Assembly: GCA_938031175.1 (NCBI GenBank)
Contig: CALHGZ010000010.1
Coordinates: 147,508-196,826 of the forward strand
Reading direction: 5' to 3'
DNA length: 49,319 nucleotides
Origin: Candidatus Kapaibacterium sp.
GTDB lineage: Bacteria > Bacteroidota > Ignavibacteria > Kapaibacteriales > UBA2268
Below, piece by piece: positions 42,297-49,319 of the stretch (position 1 is its first letter; each line of letters opens with the position of its first letter). The translations under genes and the position numbers were made by a program. The notes under the pieces are model-generated. The model had not been told where the DNA came from. It saw only the letters and a program-made list of their open reading frames with translations, and searched no databases.

Positions 42297-42370
42297 GCCG
42301 GAGTAGCTCAGTTGGTTAGAGCAACGGAATCATAATCCGTGTGTCGGGGGTTCAAATCCCTCCTCCGGTA
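42297..42370 (+). tRNA. tRNA with CAT anticodon (elongator Met, or Ile2)
   Basis: A 74-base cloverleaf. The acceptor stem GCCGGAG pairs with CTCCGGT (42363-42369), and the discriminator is A42370. The anticodon loop ATCATAA is at 42329-42335 with CAT at 42331-42333. The T-arm GGGGG-TTCAAAT-CCCTC closes with one G-U pair. No CCA is encoded. The anticodon stem has no run of three G-C pairs, so this is not initiator tRNA; whether C34 stays Met-reading or becomes lysidine (Ile2) needs comparison of identity elements. A TATTTTTG -7-like box lies at 42269-42276. It is the gene next to the CRISPR-Cas operon. Confidence 0.93.
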
Positions 42371-42650
42371 CTATTTTAAAATCCTACCTCAAACACTATT
42401 TATCTAATCGTAAATTTTTTATTCCTGCTAAATAAGCCTTTATGAATTATGCCTATAAATCAAATTTATTAAAATAGTAAAAATCCTTACTTGAAAGAAT
42501 ATTTATTGTTATTTTTTTAGACATAAAATTTTTCGTATTTTTTTTTGAAAATAATATCATTGGAATTTAAATTTGTTTAGTAATCACTGCGTATGTAATT
42601 TAAGACAATAAATCAAATTAAATTATAACTTACCAACATAAGGATTGCAT
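42371..42650. other. AT-rich gap upstream of the cas operon, no gene seen
   Basis: The 280 bases between the CAT tRNA and cas8e have no reading frame of note and no cas3 remnant. They contain the promoter proposed below. No inverted repeat, duplicated tRNA fragment or integrase remnant was found by eye. Confidence 0.5.
42544..42575 (+). promoter_or_regulatory. Bacteroidota-type promoter for the cas operon
   Basis: TTTG (42544-42547) and TAAATTTG (42568-42575) lie 20 bases apart, the same exact spacing as in the tRNA-Pro promoter of this window. Transcription would start near 42582, giving a leader of about 70 bases before ATG 42651. Both elements fit the consensus without a mismatch. Confidence 0.55.
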
Positions 42651-44039
42651 ATGTCATATTACAACTTACTCGATGAAAATTGGATTCCGGTACTTTACCT
42701 AAACGGCGAATTCACTCGCTTAAGTGTCAAAAAAACCCTCGAAGACGCTCATTTAATTCGCCAAATTGCTGCAAGCAATCCAATGGATAGGGTAGCTATC
42801 ATACGTTTCCTGCTAGCAATTCTTTACTGGTGCAAGGGTAATCCACCAAAAGAAGAAAATGAAATTCCAACTAAATTTCCTATGGAATGGTTCGAAAAAC
42901 TCGATCAAAATCGTGAATGCTTCAATCTGTTCGGCGATGGAAAAAGATTCTATCAAGACGAAAGTACTAAAAGTAAAAATATGCTTCCAATCGGTTCACT
43001 TATTCATGAAATACCAACCGGAATTAGTATTTATCATTTTAGACACGCAATTGATGGTAAAGTTGGCATTTGTCCTGTATGTTGTGCATTTGGATTATTG
43101 CGACTTCCTGTCTTTACAACACAAGGCGGACGAGGAAAAGGTCCCGGTATTAACAATAAACCTCCTTTATATATCATTCCATTAGGTAAAACACTTTTAG
43201 AAACATTATTTATTTCATACAAGCCTGTTTTCAATTTAGGTTCTCCTTCTTGGGATACCCAAAATAATGTAAATACTACAGATGGAACAGTGCCTTTACT
43301 GAATGGATTAACTGATCTACCTCGAATTGTAAGACTTGGTGAACCAACAACCAAAGGTCAATGTATAAATTGCGGTGTAATTGATAGCCTAATAACTAAA
43401 TGTGTTTTCAATGATAATAGAAATCGTTATGGCAATGCTAAATGGGAAGATCCGCATGTTGCTTATTTCAAAAGTAAATCCTTAAGTACCGATAATCCAC
43501 TTAAAATATGGTTCAAAACTGACAGACCTTGGACGACTTTATTAAATTATTTTTTAGAAACAAATTTAAATCCACCACAGAATTTTTTAATAGTCGGTTT
43601 TGCTTCTGATCAAGCAAAACATATTGATATTTGGGAAAGAATCTTGAAAATACCTAAACTAGACAACTCAGAGAATAATGCACAATTTCAAAAAGAATGG
43701 GATGAAGCAATTAAAAAAATTCCAAACTTAATAAAAAATTCAAAACGTAAGAAAAATCTCAATGAACAAATTATTATCAGAATCATACGCCCACATATCG
43801 AAAAACAAATTTCATCCAATTTAAGTTCCATTATTGATGGAACAATTCAACCATGGGATTTTGCTTCTTCTGAATTTAAAAAAGTAATGCCAATATTGGC
43901 AAAATCACTTACCCCAGGTTTTTTATCTGCTGATATTGATAAACAAACAAAAATAGCCTCTTTTGTTCCAATTTTCAAATCCACAAATAACCAAAAATCA
44001 AAAAAACTTAAAGGAAAGGACAAAGATGAATCAAATTGA
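42651..44039 (+). CDS. cas8e: Cas8e (Cse1/CasA), large subunit of type I-E Cascade
   Basis: This is the large subunit of the type I-E effector, which recognises the PAM and begins R-loop formation. The 462 residues are somewhat shorter than E. coli Cse1 (about 500). The family opening YYNLLDENWIPVLYLNGE and the later KWEDPHVAY are typical. Four cysteines (Cys141, Cys144, Cys238, Cys241; motifs GICPVC and GQCINC) could form a zinc site. The N-terminal GRGKGPGINNK loop (160-170) is rich in Gly and Arg/Lys. The open frame reaches a TTG at 42645, but ATG 42651 has an AAGGA ribosome site and fits the family. It is the first gene of the operon; the end overlaps cse2 by 14 bases. In most I-E loci cas3 precedes it; here a tRNA does. 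Confidence 0.95.
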   Translation: MSYYNLLDENWIPVLYLNGEFTRLSVKKTLEDAHLIRQIAASNPMDRVAIIRFLLAILYWCKGNPPKEENEIPTKFPMEWFEKLDQNRECFNLFGDGKRFYQDESTKSKNMLPIGSLIHEIPTGISIYHFRHAIDGKVGICPVCCAFGLLRLPVFTTQGGRGKGPGINNKPPLYIIPLGKTLLETLFISYKPVFNLGSPSWDTQNNVNTTDGTVPLLNGLTDLPRIVRLGEPTTKGQCINCGVIDSLITKCVFNDNRNRYGNAKWEDPHVAYFKSKSLSTDNPLKIWFKTDRPWTTLLNYFLETNLNPPQNFLIVGFASDQAKHIDIWERILKIPKLDNSENNAQFQKEWDEAIKKIPNLIKNSKRKKNLNEQIIIRIIRPHIEKQISSNLSSIIDGTIQPWDFASSEFKKVMPILAKSLTPGFLSADIDKQTKIASFVPIFKSTNNQKSKKLKGKDKDESN

Positions 44040-44544
44040 AATTGATGAAAATAAGGGAACCGAACTTTTTATTAATCGTCTTGTCAATTTAAATGAAGGA
44101 GACCTAGCTATTCTACGTAGTCATTCGGGTCTTGAACTCGACAAATCATTACAGGGCTTTGACTTATTCACAGGAATATGGTGGCCCATCAGAGAAAAAG
44201 GATGGGCACCCAAGAGACGTGTATCATGGCTAATCACAAAACTTTTTGCTCGGTTTCCATTTAAACAATATTCGAAATATTCGAAATATACATTAGCAAA
44301 ACAACTTGGATATTATATGCTTCAAAATTCAGATTTGAAACATAGAATCCAGACGAGATTCGACCAGATTCTACTAGCACCATTTGACCAGCTTGAACCT
44401 AATCTTAATTGGGCTCTTGATCTTATCAGAAAAAATTCAAAAGGAGTTATTAAGTTCGATTGGGTTAGCCTGACCAACGATTTGATGTATTGGGAAAGAG
44501 AAAGTACAAAAATTAAATGGGTAAATGAATTTTTAAACAAATAA
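44026..44544 (+). CDS. cse2: Cse2 (CasB), small subunit of type I-E Cascade
   Basis: The 172-residue all-helical small subunit forms a dimer along the non-target strand. Opening ELFINRLVNLNEGDLAILRSHSG, then FDLFTGIWWPIREKGWAP and the C-terminal QLEPNLNWALDLIRK are typical of the Cse2 family; the opening and the GDLAxLRR-like basic segment agree with its role in R-loop binding. ATG 44026 follows GGAAAGGA; the longer frame upstream lies inside cas8e. It overlaps cas8e by 14 bases and precedes cas7e by 29. Confidence 0.9.
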   Translation: MNQIEIDENKGTELFINRLVNLNEGDLAILRSHSGLELDKSLQGFDLFTGIWWPIREKGWAPKRRVSWLITKLFARFPFKQYSKYSKYTLAKQLGYYMLQNSDLKHRIQTRFDQILLAPFDQLEPNLNWALDLIRKNSKGVIKFDWVSLTNDLMYWERESTKIKWVNEFLNK

Positions 44545-44573: not shown

Positions 44574-45815
44574 ATGATAATTCAAATTCACATGATCCAA
44601 AATCATAGCCCCGCAAATTTAAACCGAGATGATCTCGGTGCTCCTAAAACTTGCTATTTTGGTGGTGTATTGCGTTCAAGAATCTCATCTCAAAGTTTAA
44701 AACGAAGTATTCGTATGAGCGATGAATTCAAGGAACTTCTTGGTGGAATTAGAACAAGAAGACTTGCCGAACTTATTGCTTTAAAGATCGATGGAAGCAC
44801 CGCAACAAAAAAGCGCGCTGAAAAAATTCTCTCAAAATGTGGAATTTCACCGGACAAAACCAAAAGTAGCAAAAAAGATGAAAGCGAAGAAAATGATGTT
44901 GATAGCTCAACAAAAGACACTAAAATGTTAGTTTATACAACGTGTGAAGCAATTGACGAAATGGCTGCATTGTTAACAAATGATAATAGTTCTGATGAGG
45001 AATTAGCAAAAAAATTTGCCGAATTAATTTCATCTAAGGTATATGTACCCGATATGGCACTTACTGGTAGAATGCTTGAACCAAGCGGTGCCACAGAAAT
45101 CTGGAAAGGCTCAGATAAAACAGTCGAAGCATCACTTCAAGTAGCCCATGCAATTTCCACTCATCAAATAAATCCCGAGGTTGATTATTTTGTTGCAGCA
45201 GATGACATTCCCGGAGAAGATGCTGGCGCTGGTTACCTTGATGAGGCAATGTTTGTTTCTTCATGCTTTTATAAATATTTCTCGATTAATTGGGAACAGC
45301 TTGTAAAAAATCTTAATGGTAACAAGGAATTGGCATTACATACTATTGGTGCATTTCTAAGAGGAGCCGCTGTATGTAATCCAACTGGGAAGCAGAATAG
45401 TTTTGCCGCTCACAATCTTCCTGATGGAATTTTAGTAGAACTTAGAAACACCCCTGTAAATTATGCTAATGCTTTTGCTGAACCTGTATCCAGAGAGAGC
45501 AGGAGAAGTATAATCGAACAAAGCATTGCCCAACTTGCGCAATATGCTCATGATATCAAATCTGGCTATGGTGATCCTTACGCAAGTATTTGGTTCTCAC
45601 CTAATCTTCGCTACAAATTTAGCAACGGCGAAGTTAACCGCGATGTAAAATCTTGTAAAACTCTAGATGAATTAACCGAACTTATGATTAATGAACTAAG
45701 TGAAAAATTAAATCTTGGTATTTCATGGGATGTCGCCAAAAAAAATGTATTAGACGAAAAACATCGTTTAGACAAGATATTAAACGACATTAGAAAATCA
45801 AAATCTGTGGTGTAA
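44574..45815 (+). CDS. cas7e: Cas7e (Cse4/CasC), backbone subunit of type I-E Cascade
   Basis: Six copies of this protein coat the crRNA spacer in Cascade. The 413 residues contain IHMIQNHSPANLNRDDLGAPK and FGGVLRSRISSQSLKRSIR, both clearly family-specific (E. coli Cas7 opens with the same HSP-x-x-LNRDD pattern), plus KMLVYTTCEAIDEM and GAFLRGAAVCNPTGKQNSFAAHNLPD. Residues 95-117 hold a strongly charged, low-complexity stretch (KTKSSKKDESEENDVDSSTK) not expected in E. coli Cas7, probably a surface loop. A clear AAGGAG ribosome site precedes the ATG. One base separates its stop from the cas5-HNH start. Confidence 0.96.
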   Translation: MIIQIHMIQNHSPANLNRDDLGAPKTCYFGGVLRSRISSQSLKRSIRMSDEFKELLGGIRTRRLAELIALKIDGSTATKKRAEKILSKCGISPDKTKSSKKDESEENDVDSSTKDTKMLVYTTCEAIDEMAALLTNDNSSDEELAKKFAELISSKVYVPDMALTGRMLEPSGATEIWKGSDKTVEASLQVAHAISTHQINPEVDYFVAADDIPGEDAGAGYLDEAMFVSSCFYKYFSINWEQLVKNLNGNKELALHTIGAFLRGAAVCNPTGKQNSFAAHNLPDGILVELRNTPVNYANAFAEPVSRESRRSIIEQSIAQLAQYAHDIKSGYGDPYASIWFSPNLRYKFSNGEVNRDVKSCKTLDELTELMINELSEKLNLGISWDVAKKNVLDEKHRLDKILNDIRKSKSVV

Positions 45816-45816
45816 T

Positions 45817-46986
45817 ATGAACGATATCACTAACACTCTGTTCCTTCGTCTTGAGGGTCCCTTGCAAGCATGGGGCACGCATGAATCAAAATTTGTTATT
45901 AGACGTGCCGGCGATGCTCCCACCAAATCGGGGATAATTGGACTTTTATTTTCTGCTATGGGTATATCACGAAAGGAAGCAGATGCTAACAACAGCGAAT
46001 TGCTTAAAAAATTTGCTAAATTGAAAATGGCTGTACGTATAGACAGACCGGGCTTCAGATGGTGGGATTACCATACTGTCGGTGCAAAAATTGGTTGTCT
46101 TAGCGCTGACGGAAAAATTAAGAAAACACCCACAACTGGTCAGATTGAAACTTTTGTTACGCGCCGAGAATACCTATGCGATGCAAGTTTTCTTGTAGCA
46201 ATTAAGTTTGAACCTGAAATAATACAGCAAATTCATAAAGCCTTACTTAATCCTATTTGGACGCTCTATCTTGGTAGAAAATCCTGCCCACCTTCAATAC
46301 CAATTTATACAGGGGAAATGGGTTATTTCGATAATTTGTTATCAGCATTAAAATCCGTCCATTGGAGACCACGTTATAAAAGTGACGTAATCCCTGAATA
46401 CTTAGAATGCTTAATTGACTGGATCCCAACAGAAACTGAACCATTCGCTCCAGATGATGCAGAAATTTGGTATGATGTACCTGAAACTTTTGTTTGGCCC
46501 TCGCACCATCCACGCTTTGTCGTACGAACCCTATTAAAAGTAGGTGAGGATGCTGATGTTAAAATCGGAGAACATATCCAAAACAAAGCTTCTTCACCCG
46601 AACGCCCTAGAACCGATTACGACAGAAGCACATGGGGAAAAGTGCAAAAGAAAAGACTCGAACTTGATTATCATCTTTGTGTATTCTGCAAATCTCCTGC
46701 TACAACAGTCCAACACATAAATTATCGTCAATCAAGTAAAGAGGCTAATTTACAAGCCTTAAGCGACGAAAAAATAATGAATAAACACATTATAAATCAC
46801 AGAACTCTTTGCAGACTTTGCCACGACGCCGTAACCATGCTTGAATATGGAGAGGACATGGGATTAGACCGTATAAACCCAGAAGATCAAAAATGGAGAG
46901 ATAAAATTATCGAAAAACGCAACGAGATCATACTGCATCGTTCTTTAGCAACTCGAAAAAGAAAACTATATAATAAGGAGATCTAA
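45817..46986 (+). CDS. cas5e: Cas5e fused to a C-terminal HNH nuclease domain (Cas5-HNH)
   Basis: The 389-residue protein joins a Cas5e domain (about 1-240) to an HNH nuclease (about 270-389). Plain Cas5e is about 225 residues. Cas5e features: FLRLEGPLQAWGTHESKFVIRR, DAPTKSGIIGLLFSAMG, GQIETFVTRREYLCDASFLVAI and LYLGRKSCPPSIPI. HNH features: WGKVQKKRLELDYHLCVFC lead-in, zinc Cys288/Cys291 and Cys332/Cys335 (LCRLCH), catalytic His300 (VQHINY), Asn327 (INHRT) and His336. All expected positions are present, so the nuclease is probably active. Cas5e caps the crRNA 5' handle at the PAM end of Cascade, so HNH would sit near the R-loop there (inference from known Cascade structures). It is in frame and in operon with cas7e and cas6e. 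The design matches the Cas5-HNH type I-E variant. Confidence 0.96.
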   Translation: MNDITNTLFLRLEGPLQAWGTHESKFVIRRAGDAPTKSGIIGLLFSAMGISRKEADANNSELLKKFAKLKMAVRIDRPGFRWWDYHTVGAKIGCLSADGKIKKTPTTGQIETFVTRREYLCDASFLVAIKFEPEIIQQIHKALLNPIWTLYLGRKSCPPSIPIYTGEMGYFDNLLSALKSVHWRPRYKSDVIPEYLECLIDWIPTETEPFAPDDAEIWYDVPETFVWPSHHPRFVVRTLLKVGEDADVKIGEHIQNKASSPERPRTDYDRSTWGKVQKKRLELDYHLCVFCKSPATTVQHINYRQSSKEANLQALSDEKIMNKHIINHRTLCRLCHDAVTMLEYGEDMGLDRINPEDQKWRDKIIEKRNEIILHRSLATRKRKLYNKEI

Positions 46987-46988
46987 CT

Positions 46989-47816
46989 ATGTACCATTCT
47001 TATCTCGTAATTGATACTGGTCGAAATCCAGACAAACCACGTCCAGGTAGAGATTGGCTGAAAAATATTTATGCTGTCCATCAAAGATTATGTATGGGCT
47101 TCCCTAACGAAACAAAAATAAATATTGATCCATTCTTTTTATCTCCTTTTAAGCCCGAAAGCTTTACAAAAGATAGATTAAATCCAAATTATTTAAGCAA
47201 TTATAGTCAAGATCCACAAAGCAATCGCCCTGCTTTCCTTTTTCGAATAGATAATCAGATTCACCAAAACAATAGAATTGCAATCATCGGTATTCAATCA
47301 GAATTAGAACCTAACTGGGAATATGCTTTTCGCAATGCTGGACACTTACTTGCAACTGATTTCCCAATTGCAAAACCCAAAATATACGAACCTTATTTCA
47401 ACAACGGCGATTTACTCCAATTTAGAATTAATATCAATCTAAGTAAAAAAAGCGCCGATTATAATAATAAAGGAGAAAAAAGAAACCGTAAAGAAGAACA
47501 AGGACGACGAGTTGCTCTCACATGGAATACTGAATTAGAACGCGATACCGTAATTAGAATTTGGTTCGAAAACAAAATCAAAAGAGGAAATCTTGGATTC
47601 AAAATCAAAGAATTCAAAGTTGTAAAAATTGGATGGATACTCGGCTGGAAACATATAAAAGGTAATGAAAAAGCTGACACTTTAAGATTCCGCTCAGCCT
47701 TACTCGAAGGTACACTCGAAGTATTAAACGAAGAAAACTTTTTACAAACCATAAAAAAAGGCATTGGCTCCGCAAAAGCATTTGGATTTGGATTATTAAG
47801 CGTAAAAAAATTATAA
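46989..47816 (+). CDS. cas6e: Cas6e (Cse3/CasE), crRNA-processing endoribonuclease
   Basis: It cuts the pre-crRNA at the base of each repeat hairpin and stays bound to the 3' end. The 275 residues (E. coli Cse3: 199) end with the Cas6e glycine-rich loop GIGSAKAFGFGLLSV (residues 258-272). His31 in IYAVHQRLCMGF is the likely catalytic histidine by analogy to His20/His26 of other Cas6e proteins. A basic insert (about residues 155-175; KKSADYNNKGEKRNRKEEQ) accounts for part of the extra length. Its AAGGAG ribosome site lies inside the end of cas5-HNH, with a gap of 2 bases between genes. A 67-base gap with a sigma-54-like element follows it. Confidence 0.93.
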   Translation: MYHSYLVIDTGRNPDKPRPGRDWLKNIYAVHQRLCMGFPNETKINIDPFFLSPFKPESFTKDRLNPNYLSNYSQDPQSNRPAFLFRIDNQIHQNNRIAIIGIQSELEPNWEYAFRNAGHLLATDFPIAKPKIYEPYFNNGDLLQFRININLSKKSADYNNKGEKRNRKEEQGRRVALTWNTELERDTVIRIWFENKIKRGNLGFKIKEFKVVKIGWILGWKHIKGNEKADTLRFRSALLEGTLEVLNEENFLQTIKKGIGSAKAFGFGLLSVKKL

Positions 47817-47883: not shown

Positions 47884-48825
47884 ATGGCTACCCACAATTA
47901 TCAGGAACTACCTAAAATCAAAGATAGCATTTCTTTTCTATACTTTGAATATGGTAGAATTGAGCAAACAGAATACGGTATTGAATTCACAAACAAACAA
48001 GGTAATATCGAGATACCCGTATCAAATCTCTGTGCCCTTATGCTCGGTCCCGGTACAACCATCACACACAAAGCAGTACAAAACATAGTCAGCTCCGGAT
48101 GCTCAATAATTTGGGCTGGCGAACAAGGAGTTAGATATTACGCAAGCGCAACCGGTGAAACACACAAATCATACAAACTACAACAACAAGCTGAACTTGT
48201 TGCAAATCCGTATACCCGAAAACAAGTTGCCCTCAGGATGTATCAATTCCGCTTCAAAGAAAAATTTGACCCAAATTTAAGTTATGAACAACTTCAAGGT
48301 GCCGAAGGTTTAAGAGTACAAGAAGAATATAAAAATATTGCTCAAAAATTCGGACTTAAATGGGAATCAAGATATTACAATAGACAAAATTGGGACGATG
48401 CCGACGAAATGAATAAAGCTCTTTCAACAGCTTCCTCCTGTCTTAACGGTATATGTCATTCCGCTATAGTCTCAGCCGGTTATTCACCTGGACTTGGCTT
48501 TATACACCAAGGAAGGCAACTATCGTTCGTATTTGACATAGCTGATTTATATAAAACTAAAATTGCTGTACCTATCGCCTTTGCAACTGTTGCCGATGCT
48601 TCCTTTAAACTCGAAACAACAGTAAGAAAAAGATGTCGTCAAGCATTCAAAAATTTCAAACTATTAGGCAGAATAGTACAAGATATAGAAAAAATTCTAA
48701 ATATCAACACCGAAATTCCAGAAGATTTCGATCCGGACTCTGATCCAACGATGCCAACAAAATGGTGGGAACCACCGGCTGATGAAAATATTCTTGAGAT
48801 AGCCAATGACAATAATAATTCTTGA
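47884..48825 (+). CDS. cas1e: Cas1 integrase, type I-E
   Basis: Cas1 inserts new spacers with Cas2. The 313 residues have catalytic residues at the same numbers as in E. coli: Glu141 (GAEGLRVQEEY), His208 (GLGFIHQG) and Asp221 (VFDIADLYK), with Asp218 beside it. The start is ATG 47884 (MATHNYQELPKIKDSISFLY). An upstream in-frame TTG at 47854 lies where the sigma-54-like start would be and lacks homology. It overlaps cas2 by 20 bases. The intact catalytic residues suggest the locus can still acquire spacers. Confidence 0.95.
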   Translation: MATHNYQELPKIKDSISFLYFEYGRIEQTEYGIEFTNKQGNIEIPVSNLCALMLGPGTTITHKAVQNIVSSGCSIIWAGEQGVRYYASATGETHKSYKLQQQAELVANPYTRKQVALRMYQFRFKEKFDPNLSYEQLQGAEGLRVQEEYKNIAQKFGLKWESRYYNRQNWDDADEMNKALSTASSCLNGICHSAIVSAGYSPGLGFIHQGRQLSFVFDIADLYKTKIAVPIAFATVADASFKLETTVRKRCRQAFKNFKLLGRIVQDIEKILNINTEIPEDFDPDSDPTMPTKWWEPPADENILEIANDNNNS

Positions 48826-49087
48826 AAAAGTTTCCTCAGCCTTAAAAGGGGAATTAAGCAAATGGCTAATAGAAATAGCAACTGGCGTATTCATCGGTAA
48901 TATTAGCGCCCTCGTAAGAGATAAACTTTGGGGAAAATGCATTGAAAAATGCAATAATGGCAGAGTAACAATGGCTTGGAAAACAAACAACGAACAAGGT
49001 TTTGATTTTAACAACTACAACGACAACCGTAGAATTCCAATCGATATCGAAGGCGTAAAATTAATATTAAAACCTCCCAAACTATGA
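48806..49087 (+). CDS. cas2e: Cas2, type I-E (Cas2e)
   Basis: The 93-residue structural partner of Cas1 starts MTIIILEKVSSALKGELSKW and contains the Cas2e IATGVFIGNISALVRDKLW motif and the basic and Asn-rich C-terminal half. It has the type I-E sub-family sequence, not that of generic Cas2. It overlaps cas1 by 20 bases. The stop TGA at 49085-49087 is 11 bases before the first repeat, so no separate leader exists between cas2 and the array. Confidence 0.94.
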   Translation: MTIIILEKVSSALKGELSKWLIEIATGVFIGNISALVRDKLWGKCIEKCNNGRVTMAWKTNNEQGFDFNNYNDNRRIPIDIEGVKLILKPPKL

Positions 49088-49098
49088 AAAAATGGAGG

Positions 49099-49319
49099 GT
49101 ATTCCCCACGCACGTGGGGATGAACCGTCTTTTGCACCTAACAGCTATGAGGGAGTAAAGTATTCCCCACGCACGTGGGGATGAACCATACATTCAGAGG
49201 TAAAGAGATAGATTATATGCGTATTCCCCACGCACGTGGGGATGAACCGAAGAACCCAACGGTTTTAGTTTCACGCATACCGTATTCCCCACGCACGTGG
49301 GGATGAACCAGAAAACAAA
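49099..49319 (+). CRISPR. Type I-E CRISPR array, first four repeats, continues past the window edge
   Basis: Four identical 28-base repeats lie at 49099-49126, 49160-49187, 49221-49248 and 49282-49309, separated by three 33-base spacers (49127-49159, 49188-49220, 49249-49281); 10 bases of a fourth spacer end the window. The repeat reads GTATTCCCCACGCACGTGGG then GATGAACC. CCCCAC-GCAC-GTGGGG is a 6-base-pair hairpin, and ATGAACC at the 3' end is the 5' handle expected for type I-E (E. coli ATAAACCG). This orientation shows transcription to the right, in the same direction as the cas genes. The period of 61 bases equals the E. coli 29+32 value. Spacer sources were not identifiable by reading. 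Confidence 0.98.

Follow-up and report, generated by a model that had tools for sequence, protein, structure and literature searches.

A cas operon with a Cas5e-HNH fusion

The window (the whole 49,319-nucleotide stretch analysed, from a Candidatus Kapaibacterium sp. draft genome) ends in a plus-strand operon in the order cas8e-cas11-cas7e-cas5e::HNH-cas6e-cas1e-cas2e-array, its genes tightly packed and all open. Profile and structure-database searches identified cas8e (Cse1; 42651..44039, 462 aa; PF09481, E 8.6e-35; 8yb6_J, E 1e-80), cas11 (Cse2; 44026..44544, about 172 aa; PF09485, E 2.1e-12; 8yb6_K, E 1.2e-33; called Cas11e by PADLOC), cas7e (Cse4; 44574..45815; PF09344, E 3.2e-92; 8yb6_D, E 2e-124), the cas5e::HNH fusion (45817..46986, 389 aa; 8yb6_A, E 7.8e-108 over residues 5-386), cas6e (Cse3; 46989..47816; PF08798, E 4.5e-31; 8yb6_B, E 5.3e-54), cas1e (47884..48825; TIGR03638, E 1.4e-104; PADLOC Cas1e on 47884-48822) and cas2e (48806..49087; PF09707, E 2.4e-31). 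The start of cas8e is probably ATG 42651, with AAGGA upstream, rather than the listed TTG 42645; cas11 probably starts at ATG 44026 rather than at its listed TTG, and ATG 47884 is the likelier start for cas1e than TTG 47854 of the listed ORF.

For all five Cascade subunits the nearest solved structure is the 8yb6 complex, the Cas5-HNH Cascade of Candidatus Cloacimonetes that is also represented by PDB entries 8yha, 8zlu, 8zm3, 8zol, 8zp7, 8zp9 and 9jxs. The Cas8e match to 8yb6_J compares with E 1.8e-11 for the best canonical Cse1, and 8yb6_K was the sole solved match for Cas11. Directly upstream of the operon lies a tRNA-Met (CAT) gene (42297-42371), and the cas locus may be an island beside it; when the empty site was sought, gpmI and the BFN gene shared a contig in none of the 20 relatives examined.

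The C-terminal domain of Cas5e belongs with HNH domains

The 389-residue ORF at 45817-46986 (+) runs without interruption through two domains. Residues 1-240 are Cas5e as originally predicted, with residues 7-186 matching PF09704 (E 1e-37) and residues 7-180 matching TIGR01868 (E 1.2e-41). An HNH-type domain with a C-terminal helix follows (residues about 266-389; 46612..46983), in which the Zn-type pairs Cys288-x2-Cys291 and Cys332-x2-Cys335 and the residues His300, Asn327 and His336 all occupy the positions first assigned to them. The expected match to the published Cas5-HNH set was also found, since the nearest solved chains are 8yb6 and its sisters: the whole protein matches 8yb6_A, 8zp9_B and 9jxs_B at E 8e-108 to 1e-106 over residues 5-386, with about 50% identity to 8yb6_A over the full Cas5-HNH chain, whereas canonical Cas5e chains score far more weakly (E 6e-24 and worse).

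The original prediction had named a missing HNH profile match as grounds for giving it up, and the Pfam HNH profile (PF01844) indeed returned no match to the window protein, either at full length with E 0.01 or for its C-terminal part with E 10. Homology to the HNH part of solved chains was nevertheless clear, as residues 262-389 alone matched that part of the Cas5-HNH chains at E 5e-27 (8yb6_A) to 1e-25. PF01844 is matched by 52 of the 53 aligned Cas5-HNH members, the window being the sole exception, and when residues 316-328 were deleted in silico from the isolated domain PF01844 scored 21.7 bits against a cut-off of 21.4; the zf-C4pol profile scored better on the same deleted domain (E 8.7e-5) yet stayed under its own cut-off.

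The AlphaFold model of the fusion (mean pLDDT 78, pTM 0.65) has the order strand (297-300), strand (328-331) and helix (333-345). Foldseek returned 12 chains at E 0.001 or better, seven from Cas5-HNH Cascade and five from other Cas proteins, and the top ranks of VIA-align were five Cas5-HNH entries at Z 23-25; the large whole-chain rmsd of 11-13 A would fit a different relative placement of the two domains. The model's HNH region (about 259-359) aligned with the IscB, Cap5 and McrA HNH chains, each at Z about 5, a range (under 8) in which a VIA-align score may mean only a common arrangement; the phage GVE2 HNH protein 5h0m reached Z 7.5 over an alignment that extends beyond the window's HNH domain. 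Unlike the window's domain, the IscB, Cap5, McrA and phage GVE2 HNH domains are not fused to Cas5. Annotated HNH endonucleases were matched weakly in a single plasmid record (E 3e-3) and in two records that belong to the same phage (E 7e-2). Taking the 8yb6_A match, the 52 family matches, the deletion result and the model alignment together, we reject the reading that the Pfam miss means an absent HNH domain; as judged by homology, the domain is securely HNH-type. A chance fusion or frameshift is likewise rejected, because the domain is homologous to solved chains along its whole length and its loop is not a shifted reading.

No Cas3 match over cut-off in the locus or the draft genome

Gene profiles and Cas3 searches upheld the original description of an in-frame fusion in an intact operon that lacks cas3. 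In the genome, a draft of 18 contigs that is 97% complete, neither the Cas3 core nor the Cas3 HD profile scored over its cut-off. Two sub-threshold matches were seen for each of the two, on proteins that we take to be RecG, Mfd, RNase Y and a PgpH-like HD protein; PF22590 passed its cut-off on the RecG-like gene, and it also matches in 14 of 14 control genomes. Nine Cas3-type proteins used as tblastn queries had no match in the window or in the facing end of contig C1. The same search recovered L099, the source of one query, together with a 646-column match upstream of the canonical Cas5e of L087; it returned no Cas3 match for L016, a short canonical-Cas5e stretch.

Among 52 related Cas5-HNH loci (described below), the only Cas3 matches were N-terminal fragments of about 70 residues just upstream of cas8e in three of them (L052:5575-5793, L058:5490-5702 and L072:104-316). 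At least 2 kb of sequence lies upstream of cas8 in 37 of the 52; in the others a cas3 could be cut off. These fragments are probably what remains of a cas3 that was lost once HNH had been fused, and they agree with the cas3 remnants remarked on in published work (PMC10910872).

A Cas3 encoded elsewhere might still serve the window's Cascade and leave the HNH domain an accessory. The genome is an incomplete draft, and 15 of the 50 related genomes searched hold a Cas3 HD match over cut-off somewhere, matches that we take to belong to other systems because the loci themselves hold only Cas3 fragments. With no match over cut-off in the window's own genome, nothing beyond fragments at the three related loci, and a published relative that cuts without Cas3 (PMC10910872), we consider service by a distant Cas3 extremely improbable.

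Cas5-HNH loci are widely but patchily distributed

Scanning a genome contig collection of 84,980 species with a two-row alignment yielded 53 loci, 52 of them Cas5-HNH; earlier scans with single-protein queries had given no match. Because the scan depended on two short peptide patterns, 52 is a lower bound for such loci. Viral contigs scanned with the same alignment gave no locus. The loci are spread over 13 named NCBI phyla, with five loci unlabelled, and as far as the contigs reach the 52 related loci repeat the effector gene order of the window: cas8 was found in 45, cas11 in 48, cas7 in 51, cas6 in 50, cas1 in 45 and cas2 in 44. Genes go missing where contigs end, as in five or six of the loci that miss cas1 or cas2. 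The exceptions are L076 and L078, in which a cas1/cas2 match is absent over about 8 kb downstream of cas6, and these two may be without adaptation genes of their own.

Within the window's order, an HNH-spanning match occurs in one of 123 genomes, the window's own; samples of the class and the phylum gave 2 of 391 and 1 of 395. The second class match (G597:C139) is the same contig as L036 (PABJ01000138.1), within which L100 is contained letter for letter. L036 is labelled Ectothiorhodospiraceae at NCBI and falls in the window's class by the genome placement used here; one of these placements, or the binning, is wrong. By path on a tree of the Cas5 part (71 rows, 193 columns), L036 is the row nearest the window, without strong support. 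A long branch carrying six canonical Cas5e rows arises within the HNH group, and a single HNH clade is compatible with the data (p-AU 0.384). The patchy spread suggests horizontal transfer of Cas5-HNH loci. Among plasmids, 231 records match Cas5e::HNH, none over 80% of the query and, among the 20 matches listed, none past residue 267; four records in the phage collection match, none past residue 174.

An FCB-type genome is a plausible source for the window. Sorting domains of the PF18962 family are typical of Bacteroidota and their relatives, and L014:332-2845 encodes a predicted M12-type metallopeptidase with such a C-terminal secretion sorting domain, which fits an FCB-type genome. The published Cas5-HNH example likewise comes from an FCB phylum (PMC11822464).

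The CRISPR array abuts cas2e and runs off the contig

The CRISPR array (49099..49319, +) comprises four perfect 28-nt repeats, GTATTCCCCACGCACGTGGGGATGAACC, at a 61-nt period with three full spacers, and it reaches the contig end, which is also the window end and cuts the array there. Contig C1 has three further identical repeats at its end, and the gene after them presumably encodes phosphoglycerate mutase; all seven repeats are identical, and the two contig ends are probably parts of one array. A script detected an array in 39 related loci (44 loci with cas2 were examined, and an array was not found in five), and 33 of the 39 share the 61-nt period.

The first repeat begins 11 bp after the cas2e stop (49087-49099), leaving no room for a separate leader, and leader signals may lie inside cas2e. 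A leader loss peculiar to this array is rejected, since in 22 of the 39 related loci with an array the gap from cas2 to the first repeated seed is 5-20 bp; in the remaining 17 it is shorter or longer. Searched as exact cores of 26-29 nt, five spacers had no match in viral contigs and so give no sign that the system is in use.

The HNH active-site loop is altered in the window copy alone

The loop was aligned over 54 rows, made up of the window, the 52 loci and a typed 8yb6 chain that is almost the same as L067. All 54 share Cys288, Cys291, His300, Tyr303, Cys332, Cys335 and His336. The spacing from His to His is 36 in the window against 23-24 in the 53 other rows, and the window copy carries a private 13-residue insertion at residues 316-328 (46762..46800, +). 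An A-G-G-x-E motif has its fixed positions (A306, G307, G308 and E310) kept in 51, 52, 53 and 53 of the 54 rows, and the window's residues 306-310, beside the insertion, lack it. Nine residues before the last His, 43 rows have Asp, 10 have Glu and only the window has Asn. Both the motif and the Asp/Glu criterion derive from this alignment rather than from a published one. The original description of a complete HNH domain holds for the residues it listed, with a reservation for the active-site loop, which differs from the loop of the 53 other rows in the comparison.

The alignment program itself placed Asn327 inside the insertion; its pairing with the relatives' Asp rests on the residue count back from the last His and on the models, in which Asn327 comes immediately before the second strand (328-331), just as Asp313 of L036 does before its own (314-317). 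A helix is predicted at 318-326 within the insertion. In the type I-F4 Cas8-HNH nuclease, the functional residues are His304, Asn318 and His327 (PMC11459484); as Asn there also lies nine residues before the last His, Asn at this position is compatible with activity. The longer loop is a larger change than Asn327.

Departures from conserved columns are concentrated in this loop. At 39 conserved HNH columns the window departs at six, four of them in the one loop, and six is the highest count, common to the window, L061 (cut by a contig end) and L076; over 64 Cas5 columns it departs at three, in a range of 0-5 over 53 rows. Departures clustered in one loop, with an unremarkable Cas5 part, are expected if the remaining protein is still under constraint. 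Private insertions of at least 6 aa occur in four of 53 Cas5-HNH rows, the window included, and in none of the window's cas8, cas11, cas6, cas1 and cas2 products; rows under 75% of the median length were left out of this survey. In Cas7e, 13 residues close to the C-terminus (398-410; 45765-45803) are private as well. Insertions as a general habit of this genome's proteins are rejected, this Cas7 tail being the only other case among the cas proteins compared.

An assembly or sequencing error in an otherwise normal Cas5-HNH gene might produce such a loop, which only one draft genome carries. The change keeps the reading frame, and both remaining forward frames over the loop are broken by stops and show nothing of A-G-G-x-E, which excludes a double frameshift; an artefact would have to supply both the insertion and the swapped adjoining residues. 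We judge this origin highly improbable.

A weightier alternative is that the HNH domain is inactive or nearly so, its loop destroyed by the insertion, and that the Cascade only binds and blocks its targets or the system is decaying. The near-invariant A-G-G-x-E motif is lost beside a private insertion, Pfam HNH passes over the window while matching 52 other members, and model confidence in the loop is low (mean pLDDT over residues 301-320 of 57 and 52 in the window, against 83 and 96 in the near relative L036); a segment that lacks an aligned relative would be predicted poorly anyway. Yet the Zn-type Cys, His300, Tyr303 and His336 are intact, removal of the insertion brings the Pfam match back, if barely over cut-off and below the better-scoring zf-C4pol, and the genes are all open with seven identical repeats. 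On balance an inactive nuclease seems unlikely, and the HNH domain probably retains its cleavage activity, although metal binding or the fit to the substrate may have changed. The loop may retune or weaken the nuclease. More tentatively, the lineage may possibly have rebuilt its active site, passing from His-Asp/Glu-His to the classical His-Asn-His and gaining a 13-residue insert, predicted to form a short helix, that lengthens the loop near the substrate and changes metal use, cut position or strand preference (for example by nicking or loss of collateral ssDNA cutting).

A PAM-distal cut by the HNH domain is the likely mode of action

Judging from their protein families, Cas1e-Cas2e would add spacers and Cas6e would trim the crRNA. 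By analogy with relatives, the PAM would be read by Cas8e and a 32-nt R-loop opened by Cas7e, Cas11 and Cas5e. His300 would then serve as general base, with a loop to the second strand 13 residues longer than in relatives and Asn327 in the place of their Asp/Glu.

The Cloacimonetes complex is described as making guided double-strand cleavage without Cas3 beyond the PAM-distal end, at 3-4 bp on the target strand and 8 bp on the non-target strand, which leaves 3' overhangs and is accompanied by collateral ssDNA cutting; mutants of HNH catalytic residues lose editing activity, and editing of human cells was obtained with the I-E2 and I-F4 complexes tested (PMC10910872). In the Cloacimonetes complex the HNH domain lies in the belly, with Cas6 and Cas11 holding it on either side, and it shifts together with Cas6 once the R-loop is fully formed (PMC11822464). 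The window complex most likely works in the same way, by analogy, and its HNH domain would make a PAM-distal, crRNA-guided double-strand cut as published for the relative only. The original prediction of a PAM-proximal cut is not borne out; it followed from the location of Cas5, whereas the tethered HNH domain sits elsewhere, and the relative cuts beyond the PAM-distal end. The original proposal of a defined cut rather than Cas3-type shredding agrees with the relative's published cut sites.

Comparison with known systems

Cas5-HNH systems are named variant I-E2 in the 2025 classification update (PMC12669027). The window has the structural features of this variant, with an HNH domain at the Cas5e C-terminus, an I-E backbone of cas8e, cas11, cas7e and cas6e, no cas3, and the His pair with Zn-type Cys pairs; the cas3 helicase-nuclease that marks canonical type I-E is missing from the locus. 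We regard it as very probably a complete variant I-E2 CRISPR-Cas system that works as its relatives do, with a loop 13 residues longer beside His300. The kind is already described, and the original remark that the architecture is rare and was reported by Altae-Tran et al. 2023 is upheld; the loop is private to the window copy among the rows compared. No mention of the loop variant was found in the literature passages searched. An intact I-E2 locus is confirmed in a bacterial order where the 122 other genomes examined have none. The window also offers a natural variant of the active-site loop, which probably governs the position and manner of cutting, and such a variant in an otherwise standard-looking complex is a useful comparison to the editing-capable I-E2 and I-F4 systems.

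The Candidatus Cloacimonetes I-E2 system, on which Zhang et al. 2024 (Mol Cell) reportedly worked, shares the same effector gene set and a Cas5-HNH protein about 50% identical over its full length, and its near-copy L067 likewise has cas1-cas2 and an array of 61-nt period. The window differs from it in the 13-residue insertion, the lack of A-G-G-x-E, Asn327 for Asp, and a cas2-array gap of 11 bp rather than 50 bp (L067). Canonical type I-E systems (presumably including those of E. coli, Thermus and Thermobifida) share the backbone subunits and Cas1e/Cas2e, but they lack HNH and use Cas3. Type I-F4 Cas8-HNH of Selenomonas resembles the window in that HNH replaces Cas3 in Cascade and Asn stands nine residues before the last His; it differs in carrying HNH in Cas8, on an I-F backbone of Cas5-8 without a separate Cas11.
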